Of a DNA stretch of 64,000 nt, positions 5,614 through 50,512 are shown in pieces. Every line of letters begins with the position of its first letter. Position 1 is the stretch's first letter. The DNA lies in the NCBI GenBank assembly GCA_016934335.1, contig JAFGTC010000261.1:1-64000 (forward strand), in the 5' to 3' direction. A model generated the notes under the pieces. That model was not told the DNA's origin. It did no database searches and saw nothing but the letters and a program-made list of their open reading frames with translations. The position numbers and the translations under genes are program-made. Source of the DNA: Candidatus Omnitrophota bacterium. GTDB taxonomy: Bacteria; Hinthialibacterota; Hinthialibacteria; Hinthialibacterales; Hinthialibacteraceae.

Positions 5614-7053
5614 CTACTCTCCGCCGCGTTTCAATCCCAAAGAATTTCGCTTCGTCTTGTAGAATTTTTTGTATTCTTCATACAACTGGACAGTCGCCCG
5701 TCCTCCCGGATGAACGCTGGATTCCGGAGCGTTCATCAGACCGGGGAATTGGTAGCACAGAATTTTTTCAAAGATGGGGAAGCGTAAAAGATCGTCGATC
5801 AATCCTTTGATGGGGCGGGGGTACAGTTCGCCCTGCGATCCGAAGAGAAATACTTCCATATCCATCCACAAATGACCGCCTTCTTCATCGCATATATTCT
5901 GAAGCCAGGCCGCCGCATCTTCGCCGGTTACGTCGCCCTGGGGCATGCGATGAAATCCGAAGGGGCACACGATATCGCAGCAGCGGACGAGTTGGCGCCA
6001 CGCCGCCTCCGTTTGGGTTACGAAGTGGCAGTTGGTCGCCAGCATGATGGGCTTGTGAGGCGCGAAGCGATGGACATGAGTTCGGAATTGTTGAAAGAAC
6101 TCGATGATTTCTTTTTGGTATTGAGCGATCTCCTGCGGAGAATCGTTGGCGGAGACGTGAATAAATCCGGGCGTCTCTTCGGAAATATACCATCCATAAA
6201 AAGAGGGGTGATGACCGTATTTTTGCCAAAGCTCATCGGCGACTTCGCAGTGCCAGCGAAGCGAATCGGCGGAAAAATCGAACCAGGCGTATAGCCCCAC
6301 GCCCATAAAAACATGCATGTTCAAGGCGTCCGCCTGCGAAAGAACCGCTTCGACAGGATCGCGGGCGGCGATGTCCATTCGACCGGGATACAGATGGGAG
6401 GGATAGAAGGCTCTGCCATGGTAGCCGTTTTCGGGGATGTCGTGTTTGTTGTAATAAACCTGATTTCGGAATGTTTCTTGGATGACGATGATATTCATTC
6501 CGATTTCGTGCATCCCGCGCACCAGTTCCTTCCATTGATCGTCAGTGAGCGTCCGGATGTCGCGATTCCAAAGTTTGCCTTCCGTCTCGCTCCAATGATA
6601 GAAACCCATCCAAGCGCCGTCGATCTGCTGAGTGGAGCGAACCGTGGAAGAGACGATTTCGATGGATTGAGAGGCTGCGTAAGATTGAGAGCCGTTCGTC
6701 GCCGAAAAAACGATGTGATGGGCGCTCTCATATCCCTTGGGCTTCCATGGAACCTTAACGCCTTCCCAGGATCGGGGGGCGACGACCGTTTTCCCCTGTT
6801 GGATGTGATCCGTACGATTTGGAGAAGCCGCCGAAAAGGACCAGTGGAACGTTTGCGTCGCATCGGATGGATTGTAAAGTGCGCTGCGCAGATCCACTCT
6901 TATATTCTGAGTAAACGGCGAAGGGGGCGTCAGTGTGATCGACGGCGTCCATTCTTTCTCGGAGGCCGCTTCCAGGCGGCCGCTGAAAAAGAAAGTCAAG
7001 ATCATCAGGGAATAAGCCAACCGACGCGCGCTGATGAAAGAATGACTCTGCAT
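5614..7053 (-). CDS. Secreted TIM-barrel protein, DUF4434-like glycosidase
   Basis: The signal peptide begins at internal Met [25 protein letters not shown] (start corrected from 7119 to 7053, which removes overlap with the upstream gene). It contains [49 protein letters not shown]. Confidence 0.65.
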
Positions 7054-7060
7054 TGCCGAT

Positions 7061-9781
7061 TTAATCCTCGCTTTCTGTTTGAGGATTGACGATGATTTCA
7101 TCCACGAACAACCATGCATTTCTCCCGCGGGAGGGATGCCACTCGGGCATCATACCAAGATTTTTCGCTTGGATCAAAACATAGCGAGCGGTTGTGTTCG
7201 TTAAAGAAGTGGAGAATTCATGCGCCAGCGGGCCTTCTTTGCGACGGGAAACATCATGCGTCAGCGTTTGGATTTTCTGGAAATGATCGCCATCCGACGA
7301 GATCGAGATTTCCACGCACTCCGGAAGAAAGATGCCGACATCGACCTGCTGCAGACAACGCAGTTTAATTTCTGTTAGATTTATGGCGCCGCCAAGATCA
7401 ATGACGGCGTCCAAATCGTCGCCTAAATAGCCTTGCCATGAAGAATCGGGGTAGCGATCTTTGGCTAAGAATCCATCCACAAGGGCTTTCTTTCCCAGGG
7501 CTGGATAGGAGGGGCTGTAATCGGTGCGAAGTTCGATGGATTTTCCTTTCGCCGCATGATCGATCATCTTGGGTTTTGGCGTCTGATCGCCTCCGCGGAA
7601 GAAAATGGGGTGCAGTTTGGAGAAATGTTTTTCAATTTCGCTCGATTCCGTCAAATCCCACAAGGAAGTGTTTTTGTGTCGGAGGCCCAGCACAGCGACA
7701 ATCCAGCCCTGCGTCCAACCGGATTCGATGCACCAGGCGCCCCAGCCGGCATCGGCGTTGCTCGCCCAATATTCCCAGCGATTGAAATCGAAGGCGCGGA
7801 ACCATCCGCCGTCCAGTTCTTTTTGACGCTTTGAAAAGATCTGAATGCGGCACAAGAATTCCGCCAATCGGTCGCAGGCGTTTTGGTAGTAGGGGTCGCC
7901 GGTGGCGCAGGCCGCCTCGTGCAAGCCGAGAAAAGCGAAATTGGATGTGTACAGCAAGTCGCAGACGGCGTCTCCGTTTTGCTGGATCAAGGGCGTTTCG
8001 CCGGTTCCGTACGCTTCATTGGATTGCGGGGGGCGCAGCGAGCCTTTGTTAAGATCGCCCAATTCTTCGCGCAGGGCGCCGCTTTCATCTTGCAGCGCGA
8101 GTAATTCACCGGCCATCTGTTTCAGCCAGGCGCGATGCTCGGGCGTATCTTCGATGCGAACCAGCCAGGAAAGAGGGAGCAGCATTCTGGCGCGCTCCTG
8201 TTGGATTCCATTGGTCCAGCGCCAGCCGTCCGGGTACGATTCCATGGTGATTTGGATGGCGGTTTTGGCTTTGTCTAAAAACGGTTTATAGCCGGTTTGG
8301 TGATAGGCCCACAGATAGCAGGCCCACAGATAGGCCTGGTAGTGCGGGGCCACGCTTGTTATGGATTCTTCGAAGTAATGGCGCCAGCCGTTTTGCTCTA
8401 GATTCGGGATGTCGATGCGATCATGCCGGAAACCAAGCGCGCCCGTCGTGCGCAGGCTTCCCAGCAGGCATTTAAGGATTCCTTCATCCCACCGATCCGA
8501 TTCCATTAAACCGGCTGCGGCCATAGTGGCCAACATCACTCGAGCCATGTCGTCGCCGTAGGTCGCTTTTTCCCATGTCCAATTGGTGACGCCCCAGGCT
8601 ATCAAGCCGAATGCAGGGTGGCTGGGATCGCTGCGAACGCCCTGCTGCGCGCATGAATTGAAGTAGACGTAATCCAGCAAATTTTCGGCGTAATCAAAAT
8701 AAGGGTGATTGGCCTGCGCATTGAAATCCCGGCCGAACGCCAATCCCATGGCCGCTTCGGACATGCAGTCGCTGCGCCGAATGATGCGCTGCATCTGCGT
8801 ACCGTTGTATAGGATCTGTGCGCTGTATCCCTCTAAGAAGCCGTGCGAGCCGTCTCCAATGGACAAATTATCAGGAAGCACGCGCGATTCCGAATTCATC
8901 CACCCTGCCGCATAATGTTGAGGGTCAGTGTATCCCTCTTCCAGATGCCTGGCGATTCGCTCTTCATCGGAGGGATCGACCAGCAGCCGCGAATGGACGA
9001 ACCAATCCGCGCCCCGCTGTAAGGCGATTCTCTCCGCTTGTTCGGGGATTTCCCGGCGTTTTGTATAAGTGGGGCGAACATCCTGTTCCCATTGTAAAAC
9101 GGGGATATCCTGACCGCTCAAATCGCTCAGGATGGTTTTCCATACGGTCTGCCAGGATTTATACGGGGAGTAGCGAGCCGTTACGAACTGGCTAAGTTTG
9201 GTCGCTGCGATCCAGGCGTCTTGTTGAGGATGTTTGAAGAGCACCGGCGCCGAGTTTTCCGGGAGGTCGTAGACGGCTCGATCGAATCCTGCGACGCGCG
9301 CGACGACGATCATTCCGCTTTTTACATCTACATCGTAATAATGGCAATCGTTGATGGCTAAGATGCTCATGGAAGGCAGGGAGGGCCCAAAATCTTCGGA
9401 AGCGATTACGCCCCGCTCCCATTTTGTGGTGTGATCCTCTCCGAGGATTATGTTCGGAATCGATTCGGGATATTCCACAAAGAGTTTGAGCCCTTTTTTC
9501 TTCGCTTCGCTCCAGAGAGAATCTTGAACTTTTGTTTTGCTGAACGGATATCCATCCGCCAGGATGAAGACGACGCTCTTATCGCCGGCGCGCCGAACGG
9601 CCTGCTCGGGCGAATCGAACCGTTCGCATTTAAAACCGTTTTCCTGCATGACGCGCAGCAGATCGTTGTCCGCCTGGCATGCAAAGTTCCATAATTCCTG
9701 AGCCGGCAGGCTTGCGGCCGCTCCTGCGATAATCAGGCATGCTGTAAAAACATATCGTTTTATAATGCGAAGCCAAAACAT
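7061..9781 (-). CDS. Large secreted protein with a helical glycosidase-like core and C-terminal F5/8 type C (discoidin)-like domain
   Basis: 906 aa; signal peptide; C-terminal KALVDGFLAKDRYPDSSWQGYLGDDLDAVIDLGGAINLTEIKLRCLQQ...RYVLIQAKNLGMMP looks discoidin-like. Confidence 0.6.
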   Translation of the reverse strand: MFWLRIIKRYVFTACLIIAGAAASLPAQELWNFACQADNDLLRVMQENGFKCERFDSPEQAVRRAGDKSVVFILADGYPFSKTKVQDSLWSEAKKKGLKLFVEYPESIPNIILGEDHTTKWERGVIASEDFGPSLPSMSILAINDCHYYDVDVKSGMIVVARVAGFDRAVYDLPENSAPVLFKHPQQDAWIAATKLSQFVTARYSPYKSWQTVWKTILSDLSGQDIPVLQWEQDVRPTYTKRREIPEQAERIALQRGADWFVHSRLLVDPSDEERIARHLEEGYTDPQHYAAGWMNSESRVLPDNLSIGDGSHGFLEGYSAQILYNGTQMQRIIRRSDCMSEAAMGLAFGRDFNAQANHPYFDYAENLLDYVYFNSCAQQGVRSDPSHPAFGLIAWGVTNWTWEKATYGDDMARVMLATMAAAGLMESDRWDEGILKCLLGSLRTTGALGFRHDRIDIPNLEQNGWRHYFEESITSVAPHYQAYLWACYLWAYHQTGYKPFLDKAKTAIQITMESYPDGWRWTNGIQQERARMLLPLSWLVRIEDTPEHRAWLKQMAGELLALQDESGALREELGDLNKGSLRPPQSNEAYGTGETPLIQQNGDAVCDLLYTSNFAFLGLHEAACATGDPYYQNACDRLAEFLCRIQIFSKRQKELDGGWFRAFDFNRWEYWASNADAGWGAWCIESGWTQGWIVAVLGLRHKNTSLWDLTESSEIEKHFSKLHPIFFRGGDQTPKPKMIDHAAKGKSIELRTDYSPSYPALGKKALVDGFLAKDRYPDSSWQGYLGDDLDAVIDLGGAINLTEIKLRCLQQVDVGIFLPECVEISISSDGDHFQKIQTLTHDVSRRKEGPLAHEFSTSLTNTTARYVLIQAKNLGMMPEWHPSRGRNAWLFVDEIIVNPQTESED

Positions 9782-9846: not shown

Positions 9847-10419
9847 TCAGTTCGAATTACCTTGGGCGCCGGGTGTGAATCGATAGATGTCGCCTTCGGA
9901 AATCAATCCATTGGAAGAATTGTAAGGAAACAGTCCTGATTGTGAAGCGATGTCCTCGTGGCGATCCGGACCAGAACTGACTGTCAACATATGAGCGCCG
10001 CTGTTCACTGCATCCACCACCGGCTGCCCGCCCCAATTCATGCCTTGTTTTACGACCTGGTACACATTCCATCCCGGATACCAATGGTCGTGCTCGCCGG
10101 GTCGCTGCGCTTCGTCTTTGATTACAAAGACATCCACGGGAATTGAAGTGAGATAGGAAATCGGGGAGGTGAGTCTGGGATAGATAAAATAAGACGCCCA
10201 GACGGTTCCGCCGCCGTAGGGATAGTTGTTATTGTCCAAGCGATACATTTCGAAGCCGGTGGATATAGCTTTCATGTCGCTGTAGCAGCGTGCGACTTTG
10301 GCCCGGATCTGCGCATTGAGAAAATTGGGAACAGCGATCGAGGCTAAAATTCCGATGATCGCGACGACGATTAATAATTCAATCAAGGTGAATCCCGCGC
10401 GGTGCAAATTCTTATACAT
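9847..10419 (-). CDS. Type II secretion-like pseudopilin (prepilin N-methylation motif)
   Basis: N-terminal GFTLIELLIVVAIIGILASIAVPNFLNAQIRAKVARCYSDMKAI; C-terminal SNGLISEGDIYRF. Confidence 0.92.
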   Translation of the reverse strand: MYKNLHRAGFTLIELLIVVAIIGILASIAVPNFLNAQIRAKVARCYSDMKAISTGFEMYRLDNNNYPYGGGTVWASYFIYPRLTSPISYLTSIPVDVFVIKDEAQRPGEHDHWYPGWNVYQVVKQGMNWGGQPVVDAVNSGAHMLTVSSGPDRHEDIASQSGLFPYNSSNGLISEGDIYRFTPGAQGNSN

Positions 10420-14269: not shown

Positions 14270-14902
14270 TCAGAGTCCAACCCACGAATCGTCGCAGGGC
14301 GAGCTGGACTTCGGTCCAAGACGGATGAGATCACCGCGGCTTCGGAGGCCGTTGGATGCTTCATAAGTAATCGCGCCGGTATCATTGGTCGCGTCCGGCC
14401 CGTAACTGTTCAAACGCCATTCGCAGCATCTCCAAGCTACAGGGAGAGGTAGATTCTTCAATCTGCGCTGAGAATCGGCTTCGATATAATCGTACGTAAC
14501 GTAGGCTTCATGCTGGCTGTTATCCAAACGCGCGCCGGGCGCGCCGAATACAAAAGGATCCTGAGGAACTGAACTGATATAAGCCATAGGGGTTGTTAAC
14601 GGAATTAAACGCCGATTGACGGGATTGACATTAACCCCGGCGGAATCGCGCCAGTAGGGATAGTGGCCTTTGTCCATGCGATACATTTCCAGGGCCGTAT
14701 CAAGCGCGCGCATGTCGGAGACTGCGTTGGCGATTTTGGCGCGCGTTTGCGCGTTCAAGAAGTTGGGGACGGCGATAGCCGCCAGAATCCCGATAATTGC
14801 AACAACAATCAGCAATTCAATTAAAGTAAAACCCTTTTTGTTCGACATAACGCCGCACCTCGCGTTGAGATTTAAATATTCTATCCGAAATGAATCGATC
14901 AT
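14270..14902 (-). CDS. Type II secretion-like pseudopilin
   Basis: KKGFTLIELLIVVAIIGILAAIAVPNFLNAQTRAKIANAVSDMRALDTALEMYRMD; C-terminal SYGPDATNDTGAITYEASNGLRSRGDLIR. The start is probably the MSNKKGF Met. Confidence 0.92.
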   Translation of the reverse strand: MIDSFRIEYLNLNARCGVMSNKKGFTLIELLIVVAIIGILAAIAVPNFLNAQTRAKIANAVSDMRALDTALEMYRMDKGHYPYWRDSAGVNVNPVNRRLIPLTTPMAYISSVPQDPFVFGAPGARLDNSQHEAYVTYDYIEADSQRRLKNLPLPVAWRCCEWRLNSYGPDATNDTGAITYEASNGLRSRGDLIRLGPKSSSPCDDSWVGL

Positions 14903-22326: not shown

Positions 22327-25300
22327 ATGAAGAAAATGATTTCTCAAAATGTTCGGCCGGCAATGTATGGTTTGGCGGTTATCGTTTTGTTGACAGGGCT
22401 ATCCGCATCCGTTTTCGCGCAAAGCGTGACTTTGTCAGGCGTCGTCATCGATGAAAAGAGCGAAGCGCCCATCGCGGGCGCGAAAGTCGAGTTGACCAAC
22501 GCCAATGCGGGAACCGGTTATTTTGTTACTCATACGGGGGAAGACGGGCGGTTCGCTTTTACTCAAGTGCGCGCCGGTCTTCTGTATGATCTCGGCGTGA
22601 TAGCGGAAGGTTATTGTCCCTATGAAATGCAGCAATGGTTTGCTCCGACCAATCAAACGGCGGTGGATTTAACCCTTCCACTGGTGCAAGGCGCCGTTGT
22701 CGGCGGGACAGTCACGACCAGCGACGGCGAGACGCCGCTGCAGAATGTCCAAATTACTTTGGCGTTTGAAAGCGGCGATTTCCAAATGCTCGACCGAGAG
22801 CAGACTTTGTATACTGATCAGGACGGCCGCTTTCAGTTTGCCCAGATCCCTCCCAATCAATACCGGCTGGCGCTTCGCCGGGGGGGCTTCATCGGCGAGG
22901 AAATCGTAGGGATTCGTCCCCAGCAGGGCGATAGAAAGATGTTTTCGGTCAAGTTGTATAAACCGGGAAGCATCGGCGGGACGGTGATGTTGGAGGAAAA
23001 CAGTTCTCCCCTGCCCAATATCGAGATGGCGGCGCGGGGCGCATCGCAGCGGGCGGGTACATCGGATGAAAACGGCTTCTTCACCATCGGAAGCCTCAAA
23101 CCGGGCGTCTATGAATTGCAAAGTCATCCCGCCGGATTTCATCCCTATCGATCCTCCCCCTCGATTCAATTGCAGGAAGGAGAGAACTACGGCGACCAGG
23201 AAATCCGCTTGACGCCGCTGCCTCCGGCCATGTCGGTCAGCGTGAGCCGCGAAGTTTTTCTTCCCGACCAGGATCTGATTTTTCAGGTTCGAACGTTCCG
23301 CATCGGGCAATATGAATGCGATATCCACAGCATTCCGGCGAGCGTATTTTTGGATGAAGAAGCAGACATCCGCCAGTTGACGGAAAGCGCCGACCTTTCG
23401 TCTTACCCCATCGCGCTGCATTGGACGGAAGACGTGGATTTCCGCAATCCCTATATTTGGATGGACAAAAATGTAAAAACCCCGCAAAAATTGAATCCGG
23501 GCGCTTATATTCTGCGAATTCAAAGTCCCAAAGACGCCATTGAATCACGCCTGCTCTTTTTTGTGACGCGACTGGGCGTCATTGTGAAACGAGGCGAGAA
23601 AAATACGTTTGTGTACGCCACCGATCTAAAGACCAGCATGCCGGTGGAAAAAGCTCAAGTGCGGATTGTTACGCGCACGAAATCTCGCAGAAATTACCCC
23701 GGATGGACTGAAACTCTCACGCAGCCGCCGCCGCAGTCCGATCAATGGGACGGCCGGACCAACGAACAAGGCATTGTCATTATTCAACACGAATACCCGG
23801 ATTCCATGGCGGATGTAATCGCCGTATCGCCCGACGGCCATCTAGCGGTTTCGCAGATCAATCAAAGTTATTTGATTCAGTCGCAGAGCAACACCATCTA
23901 TCCTTATACAGACCGGCCGGTTTATCGCCCCGGACACACTGTTTACTACAAATCGATTTTCCGCGAAAAAGAGGGCCGGGATTATCGCATTCCCGTCAAT
24001 CAAAAAGCGACCGTCGCCGTACGCAATCCCGAGGGGAGTGAGATCTTTGTTGAAGAACAGGTCATCAACGAGTGGGGATCGATCAACGGTTCTTTTTCTC
24101 TGGCGCCCGGTGCGCCGCTGGGGCGTTATAATCTCGCCGTGAAATTATCGAATGAGGTGCAGAATTCCATCCATTTTTATGTGGAAGAATATCGCAAGCC
24201 CGAATTTCAAGTCGAAGTCGAACCGGAGCGTTCCTTTTACATCAACGGCGAGATGCTGGCGTTCAATCTGCAGGCGGAGTATTATTTCGGCGCCCCGGTT
24301 CCCAACGCGGAAGTGCGCTACCGGCTTTATGAATCGTATGCAACCGGCGGGAGCCGGCATGATTATCCTTCGTCGTACTCTACCTTTTTGAACAGCGGCA
24401 AAACGCAGACGGACGCGGAAGGGATGGCGCGCATTGAATTTCTTCCCAGCCGCGCATCCCGCGACCGGCGCGTAACGGTGGAAGTAGACGTCATCGAGGC
24501 GTCCGGGCGGCAAGTGTCCGGCAGCGCCGGCGTTCCGGTCGGCGTCGGAAAGTATTACATCACCGCTCAGCCGACCCGCAATGTGTTTGATCGCGAAACG
24601 CCTTTGCAGGTCGAGATACGAACATTGACGCACGACGACAAGGTGGTTTCGGCGTCGGTCGAAGTGGATTTCATTCAGGAAGTATGGAATCCGGTTCGGA
24701 GGCGTTATGAGCGGCCGAGCCGCCCCCAAGCCAGCCGCACGGGAATCACGGACGAAGAGGGGCGCCTGCTTCTCGAATGGCTGCCCGATACGGATATCAG
24801 CGGACGCATCGATGTGGTTCTCCGCAGCGTCGACGACGAAGGAAACCGCATCAGCGCCTCCACGCGGGTGTGGCGCATGGCGTTCCGAGCCGGTTCGTTC
24901 GATTTGCAGTATCCCACGCTGGAGGGAATCCTGGATAAGGACAACTATGAACCCGGCGAAGAGGCAACCTTGCTGATCAACACGAATTATCCGGAAAATC
25001 CCGTGATCCTAACGATCGAGGGAAGGGATATTCTGATGCATCGCGTGATATGGCCGGCGGCGAAGACTACGGCGGTCACCATACCGATCCTGCCCGATTA
25101 TGCGCCCAATGTGTATGTGGGCTTATTCATGCCCCGCGAAGTCAATCTCTCGACGCGAACCTATAACCTTAATGTTCCCGAGCGGCGCGGCGACTTGAAT
25201 ATCGAGGTGCATCCAGACCGTGAAAAGTATAAACCGGGAGAAAGCGGAGAGATTTTCATCAAGACGACGTTGCCGGACGGGACGCCGACGGCGTCGGAAT

Positions 25301-27552
25301 TGAGTTTGGCGGTCGTCGACGAGGCCATCTTCGCCATTCGATCCGACCATACGCCGGATATCCACTCCACGTTTTATGACCGGCAGTCCAACTGGGTGAT
25401 TACTACGTATTCGTATCCGCTCCAATATTACGGCGGCGCCAATAAAGGCGTCATGCCCGACATTCGAAAGGACTTCCGGGATACGGCTTTGTGGGAGGCG
25501 AATGTGTACACCGGCGAGAACGGCCTGGGCGCCGTGAAAATCACCTACCCGGATAACCTGACGACATGGCGTTTGACGGCGAGAGCGCATACGAAAAACA
25601 GCGAAGTGGGCTGGACGAAGTCCAAGTCGCTGGTGACCAAGGACATTGTCGCCCGCCTATCCCTGCCGCGCTTTTTCACGGAAAACGATCGGTTGAAAAT
25701 TCCTACGCTGGTGAATAATCTGTCCGGCGTCAATCTGCCGGACATCCAGACTCGTTTGACGGTCGAGGGCGGCGTCAAATTGAACGAATCCAATGAGAAA
25801 AAGACGCAGGCGGCGGCGGGGGCCGCCGCGCGGGAAAACTGGGACGCCTCCGTCGTCGCCGATTCGCCGGCTGCGACCTTTGTGTTTGAAGCGCAAAGCC
25901 CGCAGGATAGCGACGCCTTGCAGCTCAGCGCGCCCGTCCTGCCGCTGGGCTATCAATTCAATCGCTTCCAAACCGGCAAAATATCCGAACCTGTCATCCA
26001 GTTGAAAGCGGCTGTCGATGACAACATACGGCTCAGTCAGTCGAATGTGCAGCTGTGCATCACGCCGTCGTTGGCGTCGGCCGCCTTGGGCGCGATTCCC
26101 TACTTGACTGATTTCCCCTATGGATGCGTTGAACAGACTTTGAACGGCTTTTTGCCCAACCTGCTTTTGCTGCACACGCTGGATGATTTGGGCGCGCTTT
26201 CGCCCGAAGACCGGCAGGCGTTCGAGCAGATCGGCCCCAAAGTAGAGAAAAGTTTGAATCGCCTCTACTCCATGCAGAAATATAACGGTGCGTGGGGATG
26301 GTTCAGCTCCAGCCCCGAAGATTTGTTTTTGACCGCCATGGTTGTCCATGGATTAAAACAAGTCGACTTGTTGGAATACGCCGTCGATGAAAACCGACTG
26401 AAGAACGGCGTCAATTATCTTCAATCCAATACCTCCAACACGCGCGCTTGGGATAGTCAAGCCTATGCGGCTTATGTATTGAGCGAAGCGTTGGAGAAAG
26501 ATCCGCCCATGCTGAATGAACTGTATGTCAACCGAAACGAACTCTATGAGTTTGGATTGGCGGCTTCTGTCCTGGCGTTTCACAATCGCGGCAAAGACGC
26601 AGAAGCCAACGAGATGCTCAATCTTCTCCTGTCGCGTCTCACGGCGATATCCGATCATCAATCCGCCTGGAACGCATCGCCGGACCGGCGCTGGGATTGG
26701 TATGGATCCGCCTCGGAAACCAACGCCTGGGGATTGAAGGCGCTTGTCGCCTTGCGCGGACTGACGCCCGAAGCCGAGAAGATCGTGCAGTGGCTGATGG
26801 CGCAGCGCTGGGGCGAGCGCTGGCGATCCACGCGGGAAACGGCGGCGGTCGTCGATGCGCTCCGCAGCGTCATCCAACAGGAAGCGAAAGAAGAAGGCTT
26901 ATCGGATCTTGAATATTCGATTCTGGTCAACAAGGAGCCTGTCAAGAAAGGATCCATAACAAAGGATCAATTCACGCAAAAATTCTCCACGCCGCTTTCG
27001 CTCCAACACGGCGACAATGCGATCGAACTGCAGTTGAACCGCCCGCAGGGGTACTGGTCGCTGGATGAATCGCTGTTCCGCCAAGGAGAAATTCATCAGC
27101 CGGCGCCGCATTCCGAATTCGAATTGACGCGATTGTACGAATGCGCCATTCATACGCGCGATTATCGCGGGCGGCCTAAAATTTTGACGGAAGGATTCTC
27201 GCCGGACGATGCGCTGAAGACGGGACAGGAGATCCTGATCACTCTGGTGATTCAAAGCAAACAGGATATTCCCTATATGATCGTCGAAGATCCCCTGTCC
27301 AGCGGATGCGAAATCATCGAGTCGTTTTTGGAGCAGGGCGGCTCCAGCTGGCAGCCTTACAGTCATTATGAGCGGCGCGATCAAAAAATGGTCTTTTTCC
27401 TGGACAATGTTCCCAAAGGCGAGACGCGCATCGAGTATCTCATGCGCGCCGAGTTGGAAGGCGTCTTTCGCGCCAATCCCGCTCACACGTGGTGCATGTA
27501 CGATCCGCTGTATTCCGCTCACAGCGCCGGAAATCGGCTGCAGGTGAAATAA
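22327..27552 (+). CDS. Bacterial alpha-2-macroglobulin family protein with N-terminal carboxypeptidase-regulatory-like repeats
   Basis: 1741 aa; VTLSGVVIDEKSEAPIAGAKVEL repeats; YPYTDRPVYRPGHTVYYKSIFR (MG2-type); thioester motif DFPYGCVEQTLNGFLPNLLLL; TED-like helices QKYNGAWGWFSSSPEDLFLTAMVVHGL. Confidence 0.93.
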   Translation: MKKMISQNVRPAMYGLAVIVLLTGLSASVFAQSVTLSGVVIDEKSEAPIAGAKVELTNANAGTGYFVTHTGEDGRFAFTQVRAGLLYDLGVIAEGYCPYEMQQWFAPTNQTAVDLTLPLVQGAVVGGTVTTSDGETPLQNVQITLAFESGDFQMLDREQTLYTDQDGRFQFAQIPPNQYRLALRRGGFIGEEIVGIRPQQGDRKMFSVKLYKPGSIGGTVMLEENSSPLPNIEMAARGASQRAGTSDENGFFTIGSLKPGVYELQSHPAGFHPYRSSPSIQLQEGENYGDQEIRLTPLPPAMSVSVSREVFLPDQDLIFQVRTFRIGQYECDIHSIPASVFLDEEADIRQLTESADLSSYPIALHWTEDVDFRNPYIWMDKNVKTPQKLNPGAYILRIQSPKDAIESRLLFFVTRLGVIVKRGEKNTFVYATDLKTSMPVEKAQVRIVTRTKSRRNYPGWTETLTQPPPQSDQWDGRTNEQGIVIIQHEYPDSMADVIAVSPDGHLAVSQINQSYLIQSQSNTIYPYTDRPVYRPGHTVYYKSIFREKEGRDYRIPVNQKATVAVRNPEGSEIFVEEQVINEWGSINGSFSLAPGAPLGRYNLAVKLSNEVQNSIHFYVEEYRKPEFQVEVEPERSFYINGEMLAFNLQAEYYFGAPVPNAEVRYRLYESYATGGSRHDYPSSYSTFLNSGKTQTDAEGMARIEFLPSRASRDRRVTVEVDVIEASGRQVSGSAGVPVGVGKYYITAQPTRNVFDRETPLQVEIRTLTHDDKVVSASVEVDFIQEVWNPVRRRYERPSRPQASRTGITDEEGRLLLEWLPDTDISGRIDVVLRSVDDEGNRISASTRVWRMAFRAGSFDLQYPTLEGILDKDNYEPGEEATLLINTNYPENPVILTIEGRDILMHRVIWPAAKTTAVTIPILPDYAPNVYVGLFMPREVNLSTRTYNLNVPERRGDLNIEVHPDREKYKPGESGEIFIKTTLPDGTPTASELSLAVVDEAIFAIRSDHTPDIHSTFYDRQSNWVITTYSYPLQYYGGANKGVMPDIRKDFRDTALWEANVYTGENGLGAVKITYPDNLTTWRLTARAHTKNSEVGWTKSKSLVTKDIVARLSLPRFFTENDRLKIPTLVNNLSGVNLPDIQTRLTVEGGVKLNESNEKKTQAAAGAAARENWDASVVADSPAATFVFEAQSPQDSDALQLSAPVLPLGYQFNRFQTGKISEPVIQLKAAVDDNIRLSQSNVQLCITPSLASAALGAIPYLTDFPYGCVEQTLNGFLPNLLLLHTLDDLGALSPEDRQAFEQIGPKVEKSLNRLYSMQKYNGAWGWFSSSPEDLFLTAMVVHGLKQVDLLEYAVDENRLKNGVNYLQSNTSNTRAWDSQAYAAYVLSEALEKDPPMLNELYVNRNELYEFGLAASVLAFHNRGKDAEANEMLNLLLSRLTAISDHQSAWNASPDRRWDWYGSASETNAWGLKALVALRGLTPEAEKIVQWLMAQRWGERWRSTRETAAVVDALRSVIQQEAKEEGLSDLEYSILVNKEPVKKGSITKDQFTQKFSTPLSLQHGDNAIELQLNRPQGYWSLDESLFRQGEIHQPAPHSEFELTRLYECAIHTRDYRGRPKILTEGFSPDDALKTGQEILITLVIQSKQDIPYMIVEDPLSSGCEIIESFLEQGGSSWQPYSHYERRDQKMVFFLDNVPKGETRIEYLMRAELEGVFRANPAHTWCMYDPLYSAHSAGNRLQVK

Positions 27553-33154: not shown

Positions 33155-34228
33155 TCAAGTCTGTAAATCCTCCAAGAGCATTTCCAGCATCCGGCGATCC
33201 AGTTTATGGCCTTTGAAATCTTCGTATTGGATGTCGCTGCGCCCGCTGTCGAGAATGCCGAAACTGCCGCGTAGATTCCACATCGCCCATCCCCATCCGG
33301 CTTCCCGCCATAAGGAGAGCCAATCCCGCATCCAGGCCAGCGCGATGTCATGCGGAGTTTTGTTGTAGCATCCCCACTCGCCGGCGTGCACGCCGCAGCC
33401 CATGGCCTCTAATTCCTTAAAGGGTTGAATCTTGTTTCGGCGCAGCCATTCTTTGTCGATTGTTTCATCGCCCTGCTTCATCGGCCATGCCGGTTCGGGC
33501 CAGTCTTCCCCGTTGACCCAGCTGGCTTTGTAATGGCTGATGCGCATGGGATCGTATCCGCGCGTGCTTTGAGCGACTCCCAGATCGGCGATCGAGAGAA
33601 CCGGCGTTCTTCCCCATTCCAAGGCGTCGACTATGACAAGGCGCTTGGGATCGGCGGAGCGGATGGCCTCGACGGCGGCCCGCACTACGCGGTCATACGT
33701 TTCTTCAGGAATTCGGGCCGGTTCGTTCAGCAAATCAAAACTGAGCCGGTGCGAGGGGACGTCTTTGTAGCGCTCGCTGAAACTCTTCCATTGGAAGCAG
33801 AACTGTTTGAGCGCTTCGTCGTCTTTCCAAAGATCGAGCGGTTCTTTGGGCGGGTTGACGCAGTAGCCCGGGCCGCGGTGAAGATTGAGATTGACATGGA
33901 TATTGTATTGGCGGCCCCATTCTACGACTTGGTCGATATCTTGAAGAACCGCTTCGTCGAGCCGGTAGGAGTCGTTTTCATCCGTCCAACACCGGTAGTC
34001 GGTGGGAAGCCGCACAAAATCGAATCCCCATTCGGCCATCCATTCAAAATCGCTTTCCACATAGGCGCTGTTTCGGCGCTGGGTGAATTTTTCCAATAAA
34101 TTAAATCCTCGCCAGCGCGGCAGTTTCGCGGCGGACGGATTTTGCTTCTGCGCCAGAGCCGCGCATCCCGGCAACGTCATTCCAGCGGCGATCCCTGGAA
34201 CGGTTTTCAAAAAATCGCGTCGTTTCAT
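33155..34228 (-). CDS. Glycoside hydrolase family 5-like (cellulase fold), Tat/lipoprotein-like signal
   Basis: MKRRDFLKTVPGIAAGMTLPGC; WGFDFVRLPTDYRCW; LSFDLLNEPARIPEETY (NEP); GVHAGEWGCYNKTPHDIALAWMRDWL; GWGWAMWNLRGSFGILDSGR. Confidence 0.88.
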   Translation of the reverse strand: MKRRDFLKTVPGIAAGMTLPGCAALAQKQNPSAAKLPRWRGFNLLEKFTQRRNSAYVESDFEWMAEWGFDFVRLPTDYRCWTDENDSYRLDEAVLQDIDQVVEWGRQYNIHVNLNLHRGPGYCVNPPKEPLDLWKDDEALKQFCFQWKSFSERYKDVPSHRLSFDLLNEPARIPEETYDRVVRAAVEAIRSADPKRLVIVDALEWGRTPVLSIADLGVAQSTRGYDPMRISHYKASWVNGEDWPEPAWPMKQGDETIDKEWLRRNKIQPFKELEAMGCGVHAGEWGCYNKTPHDIALAWMRDWLSLWREAGWGWAMWNLRGSFGILDSGRSDIQYEDFKGHKLDRRMLEMLLEDLQT

Positions 34229-34445
34229 GAGAGCCTCCCCAAAACGAATGTGTGCAGATCGATTTTACAATCTTTTCTGTAGAATCATTCACCATGCTAT
34301 AAGAGATTAGCGAGGCTGGAAAGTACGGCGCCGGGGAAAATATAAAACAAAAAATAAATCTGAGGGGGGGATTTTCCGTTTTATGAGTATAAAGAGATAG
34401 AGGCGTAATTTCCTCGTTATACTTTCCATTTGCAGAGGTGAAAAA

Positions 34446-35252
34446 ATGAAAACGGCTGGAACACTGTTGGTTTTGATTGCCGTCATCGTCGGCGGATACG
34501 CCATATGGAATTATGCCGAAGTGCGGCAGACCATAGAAGAACTGAACCAGGAATGGCGCGTTCGCAATTGGGACCAACGGATCAAAGACAAAATCGGCGA
34601 TTTGAAAGGACGCATGGAGAAGCAGGAAGAAGCGATTATCACGCTCAAAGTGAAAAATCGCGATGTCATGCGGAAACTGGAAAAAGAAGAATCCGCTTTC
34701 CAGAAATACGACGAAGTAATTCGCGGTCTTGTGGCGAAGTTGAACGAGAGCAAAAGCGAGAACGCCGGCGCTCAATTCGTCTATTGCGGAAAATCCTACA
34801 CGACCGACTCGGCGCAAGCGGAATTCGAGCGATGGACCGCTGAGATTCTGCCCGTCAAAAAACGCATCGATTTTCTCCAGAAGCAAAAAGAACTCTATGA
34901 CAAATCGATCGGGCGAATCAATGAATCCGTCGCGCAGATGCAAGGCAGCATTCAGGTTTTGGAGCAGCGGGCGATGGAACTGGCGACCATCCGCGACACG
35001 CTCAAAGTGCAAGAGATGGCTAAAGAACTGGTGCTCGACGTGGAAGGATTCGACGACAGCGGCGTGAAGCAGCTGTTTCAGGAAATGCAGACTTACATCG
35101 ACGAGATCGAAATCCGCCTGGAGGCGAGCGACGAACTGCCCGCCGCGTCGTCTCTTGATGAGGCAGTGCAATATCAGGAAAATAAAGAGAAAGACACTGA
35201 ATTAGAGCGATTGCGCAAGCAGTACATCAATGCGCCGCAAAACGAAAACTAA
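34446..35252 (+). CDS. Membrane-anchored coiled-coil protein
   Basis: N-terminal TM helix TLLVLIAVIVGGYAIW followed by about 200 aa of heptad-rich helix. Confidence 0.75.
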   Translation: MKTAGTLLVLIAVIVGGYAIWNYAEVRQTIEELNQEWRVRNWDQRIKDKIGDLKGRMEKQEEAIITLKVKNRDVMRKLEKEESAFQKYDEVIRGLVAKLNESKSENAGAQFVYCGKSYTTDSAQAEFERWTAEILPVKKRIDFLQKQKELYDKSIGRINESVAQMQGSIQVLEQRAMELATIRDTLKVQEMAKELVLDVEGFDDSGVKQLFQEMQTYIDEIEIRLEASDELPAASSLDEAVQYQENKEKDTELERLRKQYINAPQNEN

Positions 35253-35276
35253 AGCCTATCCGGCGGGAGAATCGCC

Positions 35277-35585
35277 ATGGCGGGCATCGATTCGAACTTA
35301 TACAAGCGTTTACGGGAAGACTCTCAGGATCAGGCGAGAACCGTTTTGATGCACATGGATCAGCGCCGCCCATCGTGGGTGGAAGACTGCATCGCTCCAC
35401 GCCGAAAGCCATGGTTTTCTTTTGGCAAGATCAACGGATTGGAATTGATGACGCAAACCGCGTGCCTGGCCGTGATTGTCTGTCTTTGGATATCCGCTTC
35501 GTCCGTTCGATTGACGGCCGATGCGGTCTCTCTGGCCATCAAGACCGATCTACAGTCCGAACAAGTCGTCAGCCGGGAGGAGTGA
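35277..35585 (+). CDS. Small single-TM protein, candidate sigma-locus regulator
   Basis: 102 aa; charged N terminus, then TM LMTQTACLAVIVCLWISASS; lies between the coiled-coil gene and the ECF sigma gene. Confidence 0.55.
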   Translation: MAGIDSNLYKRLREDSQDQARTVLMHMDQRRPSWVEDCIAPRRKPWFSFGKINGLELMTQTACLAVIVCLWISASSVRLTADAVSLAIKTDLQSEQVVSREE

Positions 35586-35636
35586 ATCCTCCCGGAGCGC
35601 CGCCGGAGGCAAGTCAGGATCGAAAATCAGAGGCGA

Positions 35637-36239
35637 TTGATGACGCAGCAAATCTTCGAGTCGGATGAGGAGTTGTGGAAGCGGTACGATGAAAACCGCG
35701 ATCAGCAAGCCTTCGGCCTTTTGGTGAGAAAGCACCGGGAGCGATTGATGGCCTTTTTGATTCGTTTCACGAGAGATGCGGACGACTCGATGGATTTGCT
35801 TCAGGAGACATTTAAGCGGTTTGCGCAGCATTACGATGGGAAGCGGTCTTCCGCCAGAACATTTCTCTACTGCATTGCCGTCAATCTGGCGCGATCGCAT
35901 TATAGGCGGGTCAAGAACCGGCGGGAAATTTCCTTGAACGATCTCGAAGAGGAAGGCGTTTCACTAGCCGGCAAGAACGACTATTATCGAGAAGAAATGC
36001 GCATGAAACTCCTGCAAAGGGCTTTGAATCAATTGCGCATTCAGGATCGGGAGGCGATCGAGTTGAAAGACGTGGAAGGCCTGACTTATCGCTCCGCTGC
36101 GCAGATTATCGGCTGTTCGGAAAAGAGATTCGAAAAAAAACTTTCGAGCGCAAGAAAACGTTTAATGAAGATAATCATGCAAAACAAAGAGTACGAGATG
36201 CTGTGGAGGGAACATGCTCGGATTCTGGAAAATGCTTGA
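35637..36239 (+). CDS. ECF-type RNA polymerase sigma factor
   Basis: FGLLVRKHRERLMAFLIRFTRDADDSMDLLQETFKRFAQHY...SARTFLYCIAVNLARSHYRR (region 2); LNQLRIQDREAIELKDVEGLTYRSAAQIIGCSEKRFEKKLSSARKRL (region 4). Confidence 0.92.
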   Translation: MMTQQIFESDEELWKRYDENRDQQAFGLLVRKHRERLMAFLIRFTRDADDSMDLLQETFKRFAQHYDGKRSSARTFLYCIAVNLARSHYRRVKNRREISLNDLEEEGVSLAGKNDYYREEMRMKLLQRALNQLRIQDREAIELKDVEGLTYRSAAQIIGCSEKRFEKKLSSARKRLMKIIMQNKEYEMLWREHARILENA

Positions 36240-36343
36240 TTCAGCCATGACGGAATTTGCGTTTTCGACGAAGCATTGAACGGCGGCCCAGGATGCAGAA
36301 ACTTAGAAGCAGCAGAAAAACTATCGAAAATTAGAGAGAAAAA

Positions 36344-37054
36344 ATGCTTCCATTTTCTTTTATCTTCGCTTTGATTTACCGAATTGTCCAATTAATTCTT
36401 ATTGTTATGGTTATTGTTTTATGCGTTTCTTTGTTGAGAAAAAAACCCCGCCGACACGCGCTGGCGGCGCAGCAGGCCGGCCCTCATGCTCCAATGTATC
36501 GAAGAAACTTTGGCTGCATGAGTTTTTTGGGCTCGATGTTTGTCGTGTTCATTGTTCTGTTGGCCATCGTTTTCAGCGTCAGGACGAACGGCCCCAATCT
36601 CACTGAGCCTGAAAGGCGCATCCAAGAAATCGCCCAGCAGAAGCGAGAAATCGATGCGCGGCTGCAGCGGGAAATTCCCGAATTTGTGCGCTTGCTTTAT
36701 GAACAGGCCGCCGACATCAAAAAAGAATTGAACAGCGCGACCGAAGCGTCGAAAAAATCGTATTTGATGGATGAACTGGAGGATATTGCGCGAACCTTCG
36801 TATTTTTAGATAAGGAAGAATCCGAATATAAAGATCTGCTTTCTGAACTTTCTTCGATTGAAAGAACGTTGATACGCTTGAAGGAATCGGAAAAATTATT
36901 CGGCAGCGAATATGAAGATTTCATGGAGCAATCCCGCAATGCCATGACCAAAGCCAAGGCCAAATTAACCGTCAAAATCAATCTGGATATGGATAAGAGC
37001 GTCTCGCTGAACGAAATTCAAATTCAAGAAAAAATGGATGAATTGCTGCAATAA
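36344..37054 (+). CDS. Two-TM protein with C-terminal coiled coil
   Basis: Hydrophobic IVQLILIVMVIVLCVSLL and FLGSMFVVFIVLLAIVFSV followed by a helical charged region. Confidence 0.7.
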   Translation: MLPFSFIFALIYRIVQLILIVMVIVLCVSLLRKKPRRHALAAQQAGPHAPMYRRNFGCMSFLGSMFVVFIVLLAIVFSVRTNGPNLTEPERRIQEIAQQKREIDARLQREIPEFVRLLYEQAADIKKELNSATEASKKSYLMDELEDIARTFVFLDKEESEYKDLLSELSSIERTLIRLKESEKLFGSEYEDFMEQSRNAMTKAKAKLTVKINLDMDKSVSLNEIQIQEKMDELLQ

Positions 37055-45468: not shown

Positions 45469-46851
45469 CTAGGCGTGCTCGATATCGGTATATTGCGAGA
45501 TTTCATGATGGATGGTGAAGATATCGGTCAGATTCAAATCGTGGACATTTTTCCGGCCGCTGATGCGCGCGAAGGTTTTTAATTCCTCCCCGGTAGCCCG
45601 GTAAAAATTCACGAAGCGTTTGACCGATTCTTCGATTTGAAAACGGGCGCGCAGTTCAGGATCCTGCGTAGTGATTCCCACCGGACATTTTCCCGTTTGG
45701 CAGACGCGGTACTGCTGGCAGCCGATGGCTATGAGGGAGGCCGTCGCCAGGGCGACGGCGTCGGCGCCCAGCGCCAGCCCTTTGGCGATGTCGGCGCTGT
45801 CGCGGAAGCCGCCGGTGACGCATAAAGTCGCTTCGCTGCGGACGCCGTCGAGATATTTGCGGGCGCGATGGATGGCAAAAATAGGCGGCAGGCAGACGTT
45901 ATCCTTGATATAAGTGGGAGCGGCCCCCGTCGCGCCGCCGCGGCAGTCAATGGTGATGAAGTCGGGATGAGCGCTTAAAGCGAACTCGAGATCGTCTTCG
46001 ATATGGCCGGCGGCCAGTTTGACGCCGATTGGTCTGCCCTGCGTCAATTCGCGCAAACGATCTACCTGTTTCCGGAGGTCTTCCCGATTGGTCAGATTGA
46101 AGGGGCGGCCGGGCGAGATGGAATCTTGATCTTTGGCGATGCCGCGGATTTTGGCGATTTCTTCCGTGATCTTTTCTTTTGGAAGATGCCCCCCGAGGCC
46201 TGGTTTGGCCGCCTGGCCGATTTTGATTTCGACCGCATCCGCTTTGACGATGGATTCATCGACATGAGAAAACGCCGCCGTCCCCAACTCGTAAATATAA
46301 CAGCCGGCTTCCTGGCGCTCTTCGGGAAGCATGCCTCCTTCGCCCGAGCCGATGGCGGTTCCGACCAGTTTGGAGCCTTTCGCCAGCGCGATTTTGGCTT
46401 CACGGGACAAGGCGCCGAACGACATGTGCGATACATAAAAGGGAATCGCCAATTTCAATGGATGCTTGGCGGTTGTTCCAATGATGGTTTGAACGCCGAC
46501 TTCTTCCTCTTCATTGAGCGGCATGCGATGCAGTTGGGCGCCCTTGAAAAGAATGGCGTCCCAATCGGGGAACGACTTTTGCGTGCGCATGGCCGAGATT
46601 TCACTTCGGCCATGCTTCGCTAAATCAGACAGGCGAGAAAATTTTGTTTCGAATAAATCATCCTTTTTAGCCCATTGACTGAGATACTCGTCGGACGAGT
46701 GGCTTTCGGAGCGGTCATCGCCGGCTGCTTCGGAGCGTTCAAAATCATCCGGCCCCGCTCCGCATACGGGGCAGACTTCCGGCGGTTCAGGCCCTTCGTG
46801 TTCATATCCACAAATCACGCAAACCCATTTCGTGGAGGAAGAATCAGCCAT
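45469..46851 (-). CDS. Rubredoxin-like domain fused to glutamate synthase (GltB2-type FMN) domain
   Basis: N-terminal WVCVICGYEHEGPEPPEVCPVCGAGPDDF; then GSGEGGMLPEERQEAGCYIYEL, KIGQAAKPGLGGHLP and the Fe-S-type CQQYRVCQTGKCPVGITTQ. Confidence 0.93.
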   Translation of the reverse strand: MADSSSTKWVCVICGYEHEGPEPPEVCPVCGAGPDDFERSEAAGDDRSESHSSDEYLSQWAKKDDLFETKFSRLSDLAKHGRSEISAMRTQKSFPDWDAILFKGAQLHRMPLNEEEEVGVQTIIGTTAKHPLKLAIPFYVSHMSFGALSREAKIALAKGSKLVGTAIGSGEGGMLPEERQEAGCYIYELGTAAFSHVDESIVKADAVEIKIGQAAKPGLGGHLPKEKITEEIAKIRGIAKDQDSISPGRPFNLTNREDLRKQVDRLRELTQGRPIGVKLAAGHIEDDLEFALSAHPDFITIDCRGGATGAAPTYIKDNVCLPPIFAIHRARKYLDGVRSEATLCVTGGFRDSADIAKGLALGADAVALATASLIAIGCQQYRVCQTGKCPVGITTQDPELRARFQIEESVKRFVNFYRATGEELKTFARISGRKNVHDLNLTDIFTIHHEISQYTDIEHA

Positions 46852-46973
46852 GGGATTTCCTTTCGCTTTTCTCCCCCCCTTCTCTAGGAGAAAAAGGGGG
46901 AAGAAAATTTACGCAGAGAGCGATCTCCGAATTGTTTATCCATACTCAGTTGAATTATTCAAATGCAAATTAG

Positions 46974-47474
46974 TTATTGCACTTCAATGAATTTATCGCC
47001 GGGGACGTTGCAGATGGAGCATTTTTCCGGCCTTTCGCCAAATTCCAGATTACCGCAGACGGGGCATAGGTAAATCGACATGGAGCTGAGATCTTTCCCC
47101 GCTTGAACCGCTTCCATGGCTTGCTTGTAGAGATTGTAATGGACTTCTTCGGCGGCGCAGGCGTTTTTGAATCCTACTTCGGCGCGTTTTTCAGATTCCT
47201 GCTGAGCCGTCTCCAAGAATCCCGGATACATTTCTTTGTATTCATAGCGTTCGCCTTCCACGGCGTCCTGGAGATTTTCGAGCGTACTTTTGATGCCGTC
47301 CATAGCGCGCAGATGAGTATGAGCGTGAATGGTTTCCGCTTCCGCTGCGGCGCGGAAAAGCTTAGCGACTTGCGCGAAGCCTTCGCTGTCAGCCTTTTTG
47401 GCGTAGGCGAGATATTTTCGGTTGGCTTGGCTTTCACCGGCGAATGCATCTTTCAGGTTTTGTTGAGTGGACAT
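46974..47474 (-). CDS. Rubrerythrin
   Basis: MSTQQNLKDAFAGESQANRKYLAYAKKAD...FRAAAEAETIHAHTH...CAAEEVHYNLYKQAME...YLCPVCGNLEFGERPEKCSICNVPGDKF. Start corrected to 47474. Confidence 0.97.
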   Translation of the reverse strand: MSTQQNLKDAFAGESQANRKYLAYAKKADSEGFAQVAKLFRAAAEAETIHAHTHLRAMDGIKSTLENLQDAVEGERYEYKEMYPGFLETAQQESEKRAEVGFKNACAAEEVHYNLYKQAMEAVQAGKDLSSMSIYLCPVCGNLEFGERPEKCSICNVPGDKFIEVQ

Positions 47475-47506
47475 AATAGGATTCCTTTCTATAGAAATCG
47501 ATTTAT

Positions 47507-47531
47507 TTAAATAGGAACTATTCTTATTTAA
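47507..47531. promoter_or_regulatory. Candidate PerR/Fur operator
   Basis: 25-bp near-perfect inverted repeat TTAAATAGGAACTATTCTTATTTAA in the divergent rubrerythrin / Fur-family intergenic region. Confidence 0.6.
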
Positions 47532-47712
47532 GGATATGAGAGCATCTTTTTTTTGCTTTGTCAACAGAAGTCATAAAGGGAGAAATTCGGGAACATTGTC
47601 TTCTTATATTTGTAAGCAAATTTTGCGTGAGGCGCCTTGATGAGAATCGAAATTAATTGACTCTTTTCCGGGATTCATTTACTCTTAGTTAGATTTTTCA
47701 GGTTATTAAGTT

Positions 47713-48201
47713 ATGAAACGAGCCAAGAAACAAAATCGCAGCGATATAGAAGAGCGAGTGCAAGAATTTTCCAGATTGTGCAGAAAGAACGATTTGCGGG
47801 TAACGAATCAACGTTTGGAAATTTTTCGCGCGCTTCTTGAGACGGTCGGTCATCCAACCGTGGAGGATGTATTTCATCAAATCCGCACGATCCTTCCTAA
47901 TCTATCGATCGATACGGTCTATCGAACGCTGACATTGTTCGAGAATCACGGATTAATTACTCGGGTTCAATGTTTATCTGACAAAGGACGTTTTGATCCA
48001 AACCTGGAGAATCATCATCATTTCATTTGCGTGCGATGCAAGAAGATCGAAGATTTTTATTGGCCGGAATTCACGGACTACTCCATCCCGGACGAGGCGA
48101 TGAAATTGGGTATGATTCAGATGAAGAAAGTGGAATTGCGGGGAATCTGCAATGAGTGTCGCAGAAAAGGGAGGAATGCTCACCAAAAGAAGCATTCCTA
48201 A
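47713..48201 (+). CDS. Fur/PerR family transcriptional regulator
   Basis: LRVTNQRLEIFRALLETVGHPTVEDVFHQIRTILPNLSIDTVYRTLTLFENHGLI; HHHFICVRCKK and GICNECRRKG zinc cysteines. Confidence 0.95.
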   Translation: MKRAKKQNRSDIEERVQEFSRLCRKNDLRVTNQRLEIFRALLETVGHPTVEDVFHQIRTILPNLSIDTVYRTLTLFENHGLITRVQCLSDKGRFDPNLENHHHFICVRCKKIEDFYWPEFTDYSIPDEAMKLGMIQMKKVELRGICNECRRKGRNAHQKKHS

Positions 48202-49903: not shown

Positions 49904-50512
49904 ATGATAAAAAAACAAATGGGTCATACTTTTTCCGGCTTCACATTGATTGAATTGTTAATTGTTGTCGCAATCATTGGAATTTTAGCCGCCATCGCTG
50001 TTCCAAACTTCTTAAATGCGCAGGTGCGCGCCAAAGTATCTCGCGCTCATGCTGATATGCGTTCTCTTGCAACGTCTATCGAAGCCTATCGAGTCAGCCA
50101 CAACACCTATCCTCCGGACGGCGACGATCTGCCGAATTTCAATCCCACTGATTTCGATACAGCCGCGAGGCTTCGCCCGCTTACTACCCCTGTGTCTTAT
50201 ATTACCAGTCTTCCCCACGATCCTTTTCACACGAGCTACATAGAATTTCCACCGGAAACAGGAATCCAACTATTGTTTCCAGGAAATCCGCCGCACACCT
50301 ATATTTACACAACGTATGGCAGCCATACCGGAGACGCCCGGCAGCCGCCCAATTTCGGTAAGCCGGACAATTATGGTTTGAGTTCATTGGGACCGAATCA
50401 GATCTTCAATGCATTCATTGGTTATCCGGTCATCTATGACAGCAGCAATGGCTTAACATCGGACGGCGATATCACGATCGTCGGCGGGCAAAGAACGCCC
50501 TTGAGCCCCTAA
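49904..50512 (+). CDS. Type II secretion-like pseudopilin
   Basis: SGFTLIELLIVVAIIGILAAIAVPNFLNAQVRAKVSRAHADMRSLATSIEAYRV; C-terminal YDSSNGLTSDGDITIVGG. Confidence 0.93.
   Translation: MIKKQMGHTFSGFTLIELLIVVAIIGILAAIAVPNFLNAQVRAKVSRAHADMRSLATSIEAYRVSHNTYPPDGDDLPNFNPTDFDTAARLRPLTTPVSYITSLPHDPFHTSYIEFPPETGIQLLFPGNPPHTYIYTTYGSHTGDARQPPNFGKPDNYGLSSLGPNQIFNAFIGYPVIYDSSNGLTSDGDITIVGGQRTPLSP

Follow-up and report, generated by a model that had tools for sequence, protein, structure and literature searches.

Anti-sigma genes usually lie directly downstream of the gene for the sigma factor they control. SigM of Bacillus subtilis is held by two membrane proteins, and PspA of the phage shock systems restrains PspF in unstressed cells. 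There are also Toastrack operons to which a sigma factor is linked (PMC11237479). The kinase-activated group ECF43 is without the DAED motif, and the kinase-linked groups ECF59, ECF61, ECF62 and ECF217 have planctomycete examples (PMC8999054). Only about a third of ECF sigma factors are linked to class I anti-sigmas, whose domains are without the zinc motif in about 44% of cases (PMC7406223). Here we describe a four-gene module in which the type of sigma switch is ordinary and the membrane-anchored coiled-coil partners of the sigma factor are undescribed. We found no description of this combination of ECF and coiled-coil proteins in the papers searched; the supplements of the main ECF reclassification and planctomycete genomics papers may hold one.

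The module lies at 34446-37054 of the window, by which we mean the whole 64,000-nucleotide stretch that was analysed, and consists of four co-directional genes separated by gaps of 24, 51 and 104 bp. Gene 1 (34446-35252, + strand) encodes a 268-residue protein with an N-terminal transmembrane (TM) segment at residues 3-21, followed by a long helical hairpin and further helices. Gene 2 (35277-35585, + strand) encodes a 102-residue protein with a single TM segment at residues 61-79, the candidate anti-sigma. Gene 3 (35637-36239, + strand) encodes an ECF sigma factor of about 200 residues, with its start at TTG 35637 or, one codon later, at ATG 35640. Gene 4 (36344-37054, + strand) encodes a 236-residue protein with two TM segments (residues 10-28 and 61-79) and a C-terminal coiled coil (residues 88-217). 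The TM segments of genes 1, 2 and 4 were called by hydropathy. All four open reading frames of the initial annotation are present and of the types it had named, the product of gene 1 being 268 rather than 269 residues long. The upstream neighbour is a GH5-type gene in divergent orientation (33155-34228, minus strand); a chemoreceptor gene begins downstream at 37608. GC content is 45-55% across the window in 4-kb steps, and the draft genome is 5.96 Mb. No plasmid homologues were found, and sequence searches found no homologues of solved structure. Elsewhere in the window, genes for rubredoxin-like and rubrerythrin-like proteins and a Fur-type regulator are grouped at 45469-48201 and, from their sequences, have the look of an oxidative-stress cluster. 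Three scattered genes (9847-10419, 14270-14902 and 49904-50512) encode near-identical type IV pilin or pseudopilin N-termini (FTLIELLIVVAIIGILA), and 22327-27552 encodes a 1741-residue, secreted-looking protein whose predicted start resembles a carboxypeptidase-regulatory-like region.

The initial annotation had staked its reading on the four genes being conserved together in relatives, and a search of 14 genomes of the phylum left that reading standing. Only one further genome, SURF_12, has the complete set of four families; neither the sigma orthologue nor the families of genes 1, 2 and 4 occur in the rest of the genomes searched. An alignment-based contig scan located the relative's module at a single place, on contig QZKN01000042.1 of Candidatus Omnitrophota bacterium isolate SURF_12. 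The OLB16/SURF_12 lineage was formerly misclassified as Omnitrophica (PMC10066038), and OLB16 is Ca. Hinthialibacterota (PMC11382960). The window very probably belongs to this phylum as well. In the 14-genome search the sigma orthologue in SURF_12 had an E value of 2.6e-55, the next best match being at 1e-18. Identities between the window and SURF_12 were 62% for gene 1, 37% for gene 2, 48% for the sigma factor, and 45% and 36% for two copies of gene 4. The order in SURF_12 is gene 1, gene 2, an insert, the sigma gene, gene 4 and the second gene 4 copy. The insert (L045:3602-5000), which separates the sigma gene from the small TM gene, encodes a lipoprotein whose C-terminal part is an FGE-sulfatase domain. 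The gene 4 duplicates lie at L045:5639-6367 and 6444-7286, and the second has about four predicted TM segments and keeps the coiled coil. The genes flanking the module differ between the two genomes. Since the four families are kept together with their order and the flanks are different, the module is bounded by 34446-37054 and was inherited whole. These data establish the four genes as a real unit, co-inherited in two genera beyond chance.

Gene 3 matched PF04542 (Sigma70_r2) at 5e-12 and PF08281 (Sigma70_r4_2) at 2.4e-12, both above cut-off, and its 200-residue product belongs to the ECF family, having sigma-70 regions 2 and 4 only, with no region 1.1 or 3. Both acidic residues of the DxxD motif in region 2.2 are kept (DSMD in the window sigma factor, DAFD in that of SURF_12). 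Because this motif is kept in a full region 2 and region 4 sigma factor, gene 3 probably encodes one that must be held off rather than activated in the manner of ECF43. Activation by a Ser/Thr protein kinase (STPK), as in ECF43, was considered and rejected: DSMD is retained, and no such kinase is encoded in the module or the scanned neighbours. In a tree with planctomycete sigma factors, the window and SURF_12 proteins formed a branch of their own (support 0.999). Most of the sigma factors from the planctomycete loci described below formed a separate group, and the window sigma factor fell outside it.

The protein most likely to hold this sigma factor is the 102-residue gene 2 product, which we infer to be the best anti-sigma candidate from its TM segment, its N-terminal tail and its co-conservation with the sigma gene. 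The tail comprises about 60 residues, is basic, and is W/P/R-rich in a way that is conserved across both genomes (PxW...C..P.R..WFSF); a short C-terminal tail extends beyond the TM segment, and the gene is present only in the two module-bearing genomes. Gene 2 had no Pfam or NCBIfam match and no zinc motif. Class I anti-sigma domains (ASDs) are cytoplasmic and have 3-4 helices, with HxxxCxxC in some and not in others; those of the non-zinc type are poorly modelled. The initial annotation had seen no zinc-binding anti-sigma (HxxxCxxC) in the module and had proposed the small single-TM protein as the candidate regulator. Both points held up: searches with Pfam and NCBIfam found no zf-HC2 or ASD protein among the four gene products, and gene 2 keeps its place as leading candidate. 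Every zf-HC2 match in the genome directly follows an ECF gene, at six places (one of them below cut-off) on contigs C64, C6, C76, C253 and C170, and never at this module. Elsewhere, then, this organism does use canonical zinc anti-sigma pairs, and because all of these matches follow other ECF genes, the lack of one at the module is a real contrast. As to the proposal of a possibly undescribed module, the co-inherited ECF unit is real, but the missing HxxxCxxC motif is no sign of novelty; it is unremarkable in itself, because so large a share of class I anti-sigmas is without it (PMC7406223).

Several features argue against gene 2 as the anti-sigma. Its N-terminal tail is short, it has no detectable anti-sigma domain, and it lies before, not after, the sigma gene, from which another gene separates it in SURF_12. 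An alternative is that the module encodes no anti-sigma at all. The sigma factor would be under the control of its own transcription or of an unlinked factor, while genes 1, 2 and 4 would encode the target envelope proteins, the gene 2 product being a structural partner of the coiled coils. The lack of a recognisable domain in gene 2 and its separation from the sigma gene in SURF_12 speak for this alternative, as does the minority share of ECF sigma factors linked to class I anti-sigmas (PMC7406223). However, the small TM protein and the sigma factor are perfectly co-conserved in the two genomes, and the sigma factor keeps the motif usually seen in factors that work by default, in the absence of an inhibitor. 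We consider the alternative unlikely, while giving it real weight.

Gene 4 had no credible match in Pfam or NCBIfam and none in a fold search, and AlphaFold predicted long helices for its product. The loop between its TM segments, of about 30 residues, is very basic, and charge bias predicts an external N-terminus, an internal loop and an external coiled coil. For gene 1, charge bias points to a helical domain outside, the difference being negative in 32 of 44 family members, with small margins. Charge bias thus suggests an envelope-side location of the helical domain, more strongly in gene 4 than in gene 1; the margins are small for genes 1 and 2. Gene 4 directly follows the sigma gene in both genomes and is duplicated in SURF_12, as might be expected if its product, alone or with that of gene 2, held the sigma factor in a manner akin to SigM of Bacillus subtilis. 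However, the inter-TM loop is very short, and the conserved part of the protein is the coiled coil, which is predicted to lie across the membrane from the sigma side. We regard gene 4 as an improbable holder of the sigma factor.

The first planctomycete probe for the gene 1 family was a consensus sequence, used solely to retrieve real proteins from two genomes, and all later comparisons use the retrieved sequences. A profile of the retrieved proteins was then run against 199 genomes of their phylum, of which 44 have the family; from the sequences and gene content we take this phylum to be Planctomycetota. Gene 1 matched a 42-protein planctomycete profile containing no member of the window's phylum (hmmsearch E 1.9e-5, residues 5-227), as did the SURF_12 copy (3.9e-5); among 100 heptad-shuffled copies the lowest E value was 0.007, and no other open reading frame of the window was reported. 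Aligned by hhalign with an 18-member, window-free planctomycete profile, gene 1 scored 85.6% (E 5.6e-6), while the controls (canonical PspA, reversed PspA and gene 4) scored 3% or less. Gene 1 and the family have in common the TM segment, a YxGxxYT tip and a DDS motif before the last helix; the tip reads FVYCGKSYT in the window and LVYCGREYS in planctomycete locus L092, with YCG common to both. In an AlphaFold model of gene 1, built from two input sequences (mean pLDDT 69.8), a short beta-hairpin at the tip (residues 111-118) is predicted to connect two long helices. Judged by these comparisons, gene 1 is a member of the planctomycete TM-coiled-coil family, for which neither Pfam nor NCBIfam has a dedicated model, and it resembles PspA only in outline.

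If gene 1 were instead a true PspA or ESCRT-III-like protein, the module could be a phage shock analogue, in which gene 1 would restrain the sigma factor in unstressed cells and move to the membrane under stress. In keeping with this, gene 1 matched the Pfam family PspA_IM30 (PF04012) with an E value of 2.4e-7, Vipp1/PspA chains were frequent among its best Foldseek matches, and canonical PspA, present in families f3-f5 of the phylum, was not detected in the window's order (families f1 and f2). However, the Pfam score of 31.1 bits is below the curated cut-off of 33.9, PF04012 was matched by only 3 of 20 members of the gene 1 family, and hhalign to canonical PspA of the same phylum gave 3% or less; on these three grounds we rejected a PspA identity for gene 1. 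The Vipp1/PspA chains stood amid generic coiled coils, with no match at E <0.001, and the N-terminal TM segment and likely envelope-side orientation do not fit. We think a phage shock analogue quite improbable. A defence reading of gene 1 was also rejected, its PADLOC match to LmuB being a coiled-coil resemblance. Hypothetical membrane proteins are common near ECF genes, but we give almost no credence to the four genes being chance neighbours without joint function, a reading that none of our results favours and that is largely refuted by the recurrence of the same families and order in a second genus, between other flanks and nowhere else in the phylum.

The initial annotation had drawn attention to the coiled-coil partners of the ECF gene, as a possible envelope-tension sensor or effector; they are present, but the link between a TM-coiled-coil protein and an ECF gene is not private to this locus, because the gene 1 family adjoins ECF and STPK genes in Planctomycetota. 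We examined 42 loci of gene 1 homologues, which are related to one another. In eight of them (L078, L079, L080, L082, L087, L094, L104 and L106) the gene 1 homologue is preceded, at a distance of 135-747 bp, by an ECF gene, and the order is STPK, ECF sigma factor, small protein with an HxxxCxxC-like motif, and TM-coiled-coil gene 1 homologue. The small protein was recognised as zf-HC2 above cut-off in L082, and the others tested were weaker or unrecognised. Other planctomycete loci have the order gene 1 homologue, FHA-like gene, STPK and ECF gene, and in most of the 42 an STPK gene is no farther than about 7 kb from the gene 1 homologue. On a rough estimate that assumes some tens of ECF genes per 6 Mb, a same-strand ECF gene would be found no more than 800 bp upstream in far fewer than 1% of cases; the eight ECF-adjacent loci are therefore not due to chance, although the loci are related. 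Since the window sigma factor falls outside the planctomycete sigma group, the link between TM-coiled-coil and ECF genes either arose repeatedly or outlived a sigma swap.

We favour, with doubts that slightly outweigh our confidence, reading the module as one small ECF envelope-stress signalling operon, in which the gene 2 product holds the sigma factor and the coiled-coil proteins serve as sensor or effectors. The sigma factor would be held at the inner membrane by the 102-residue single-TM protein, whose N-terminal tail would be cytoplasmic and whose short C-terminal tail would lie on the envelope side. The helical domains of the gene 1 product, with its single anchor, and of the gene 4 product, with its two TM segments, would lie for the most part on the envelope side, and the two proteins would serve as the sensor, as a membrane- or wall-stabilising effector, or as both. 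Envelope disturbance would alter the coiled-coil assembly and so loosen the grip of gene 2 on the sigma factor. The freed sigma factor would then transcribe mainly its own operon, yielding more of the coiled-coil proteins. A possible operon promoter, TGRGGGGG-N18-GTATAA (34361-34392, + strand), lies upstream of gene 1 and is common to the corresponding region of the relative; the pattern, derived from those same two sites, occurs once per genome in the window genome and SURF_12. The upstream similarity between the two does not stand out clearly from chance (8 of 150 shuffles equalled it), and the element is only a lead. It is distinctly unlikely, in our estimate, that ECF control in this module is of a new class. 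In such a class, damage to membrane or wall would be signalled by envelope-side, membrane-tethered and possibly ESCRT-III-like coiled coils, by way of a minimal single-TM anti-sigma of no known anti-sigma fold, with related, kinase-based wiring in Planctomycetota.

Most ECF sigma factors in uncultured phyla are without an identified regulator, and here the candidates are few and confined to one module. Through the gene 1 family the module is linked to a widespread, uncharacterised planctomycete cluster of kinase, sigma factor, zinc protein and TM coiled coil, and work on a culturable planctomycete could illuminate both. If membrane damage is indeed sensed by the coiled-coil proteins from the outer side, those proteins would form a sensor of membrane stress different from the phage shock system.

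Four groups of known systems invite comparison. SigM-YhdL-YhdK of Bacillus subtilis likewise combines several membrane proteins with one ECF sigma factor, with no sequence relation seen to the module. The phage shock systems (PspA/IM30, LiaH) share with it a coiled-coil hairpin, small TM proteins and a transcription regulator; in contrast to them, gene 1 falls outside the PspA family and has a TM segment, and the module is without a PspC, Toastrack or LiaF domain. RseA/RpoE, RskA/SigK and RsiW/SigW resemble it in having a single-TM protein with a short N-terminal tail encoded with an ECF sigma factor, whereas in the module no anti-sigma domain is recognisable, the gene order is reversed and there are extra coiled-coil partners. 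The STPK-ECF-zinc protein-TM-coiled-coil clusters of Planctomycetota share with the module an ECF gene beside a gene 1 homologue with TM anchor, hairpin and YxGxxYT tip. Unlike those clusters, the module has a sigma factor outside their sigma clade and a different gene order, and in place of the STPK and the zinc protein it has the 102-residue TM protein and gene 4.
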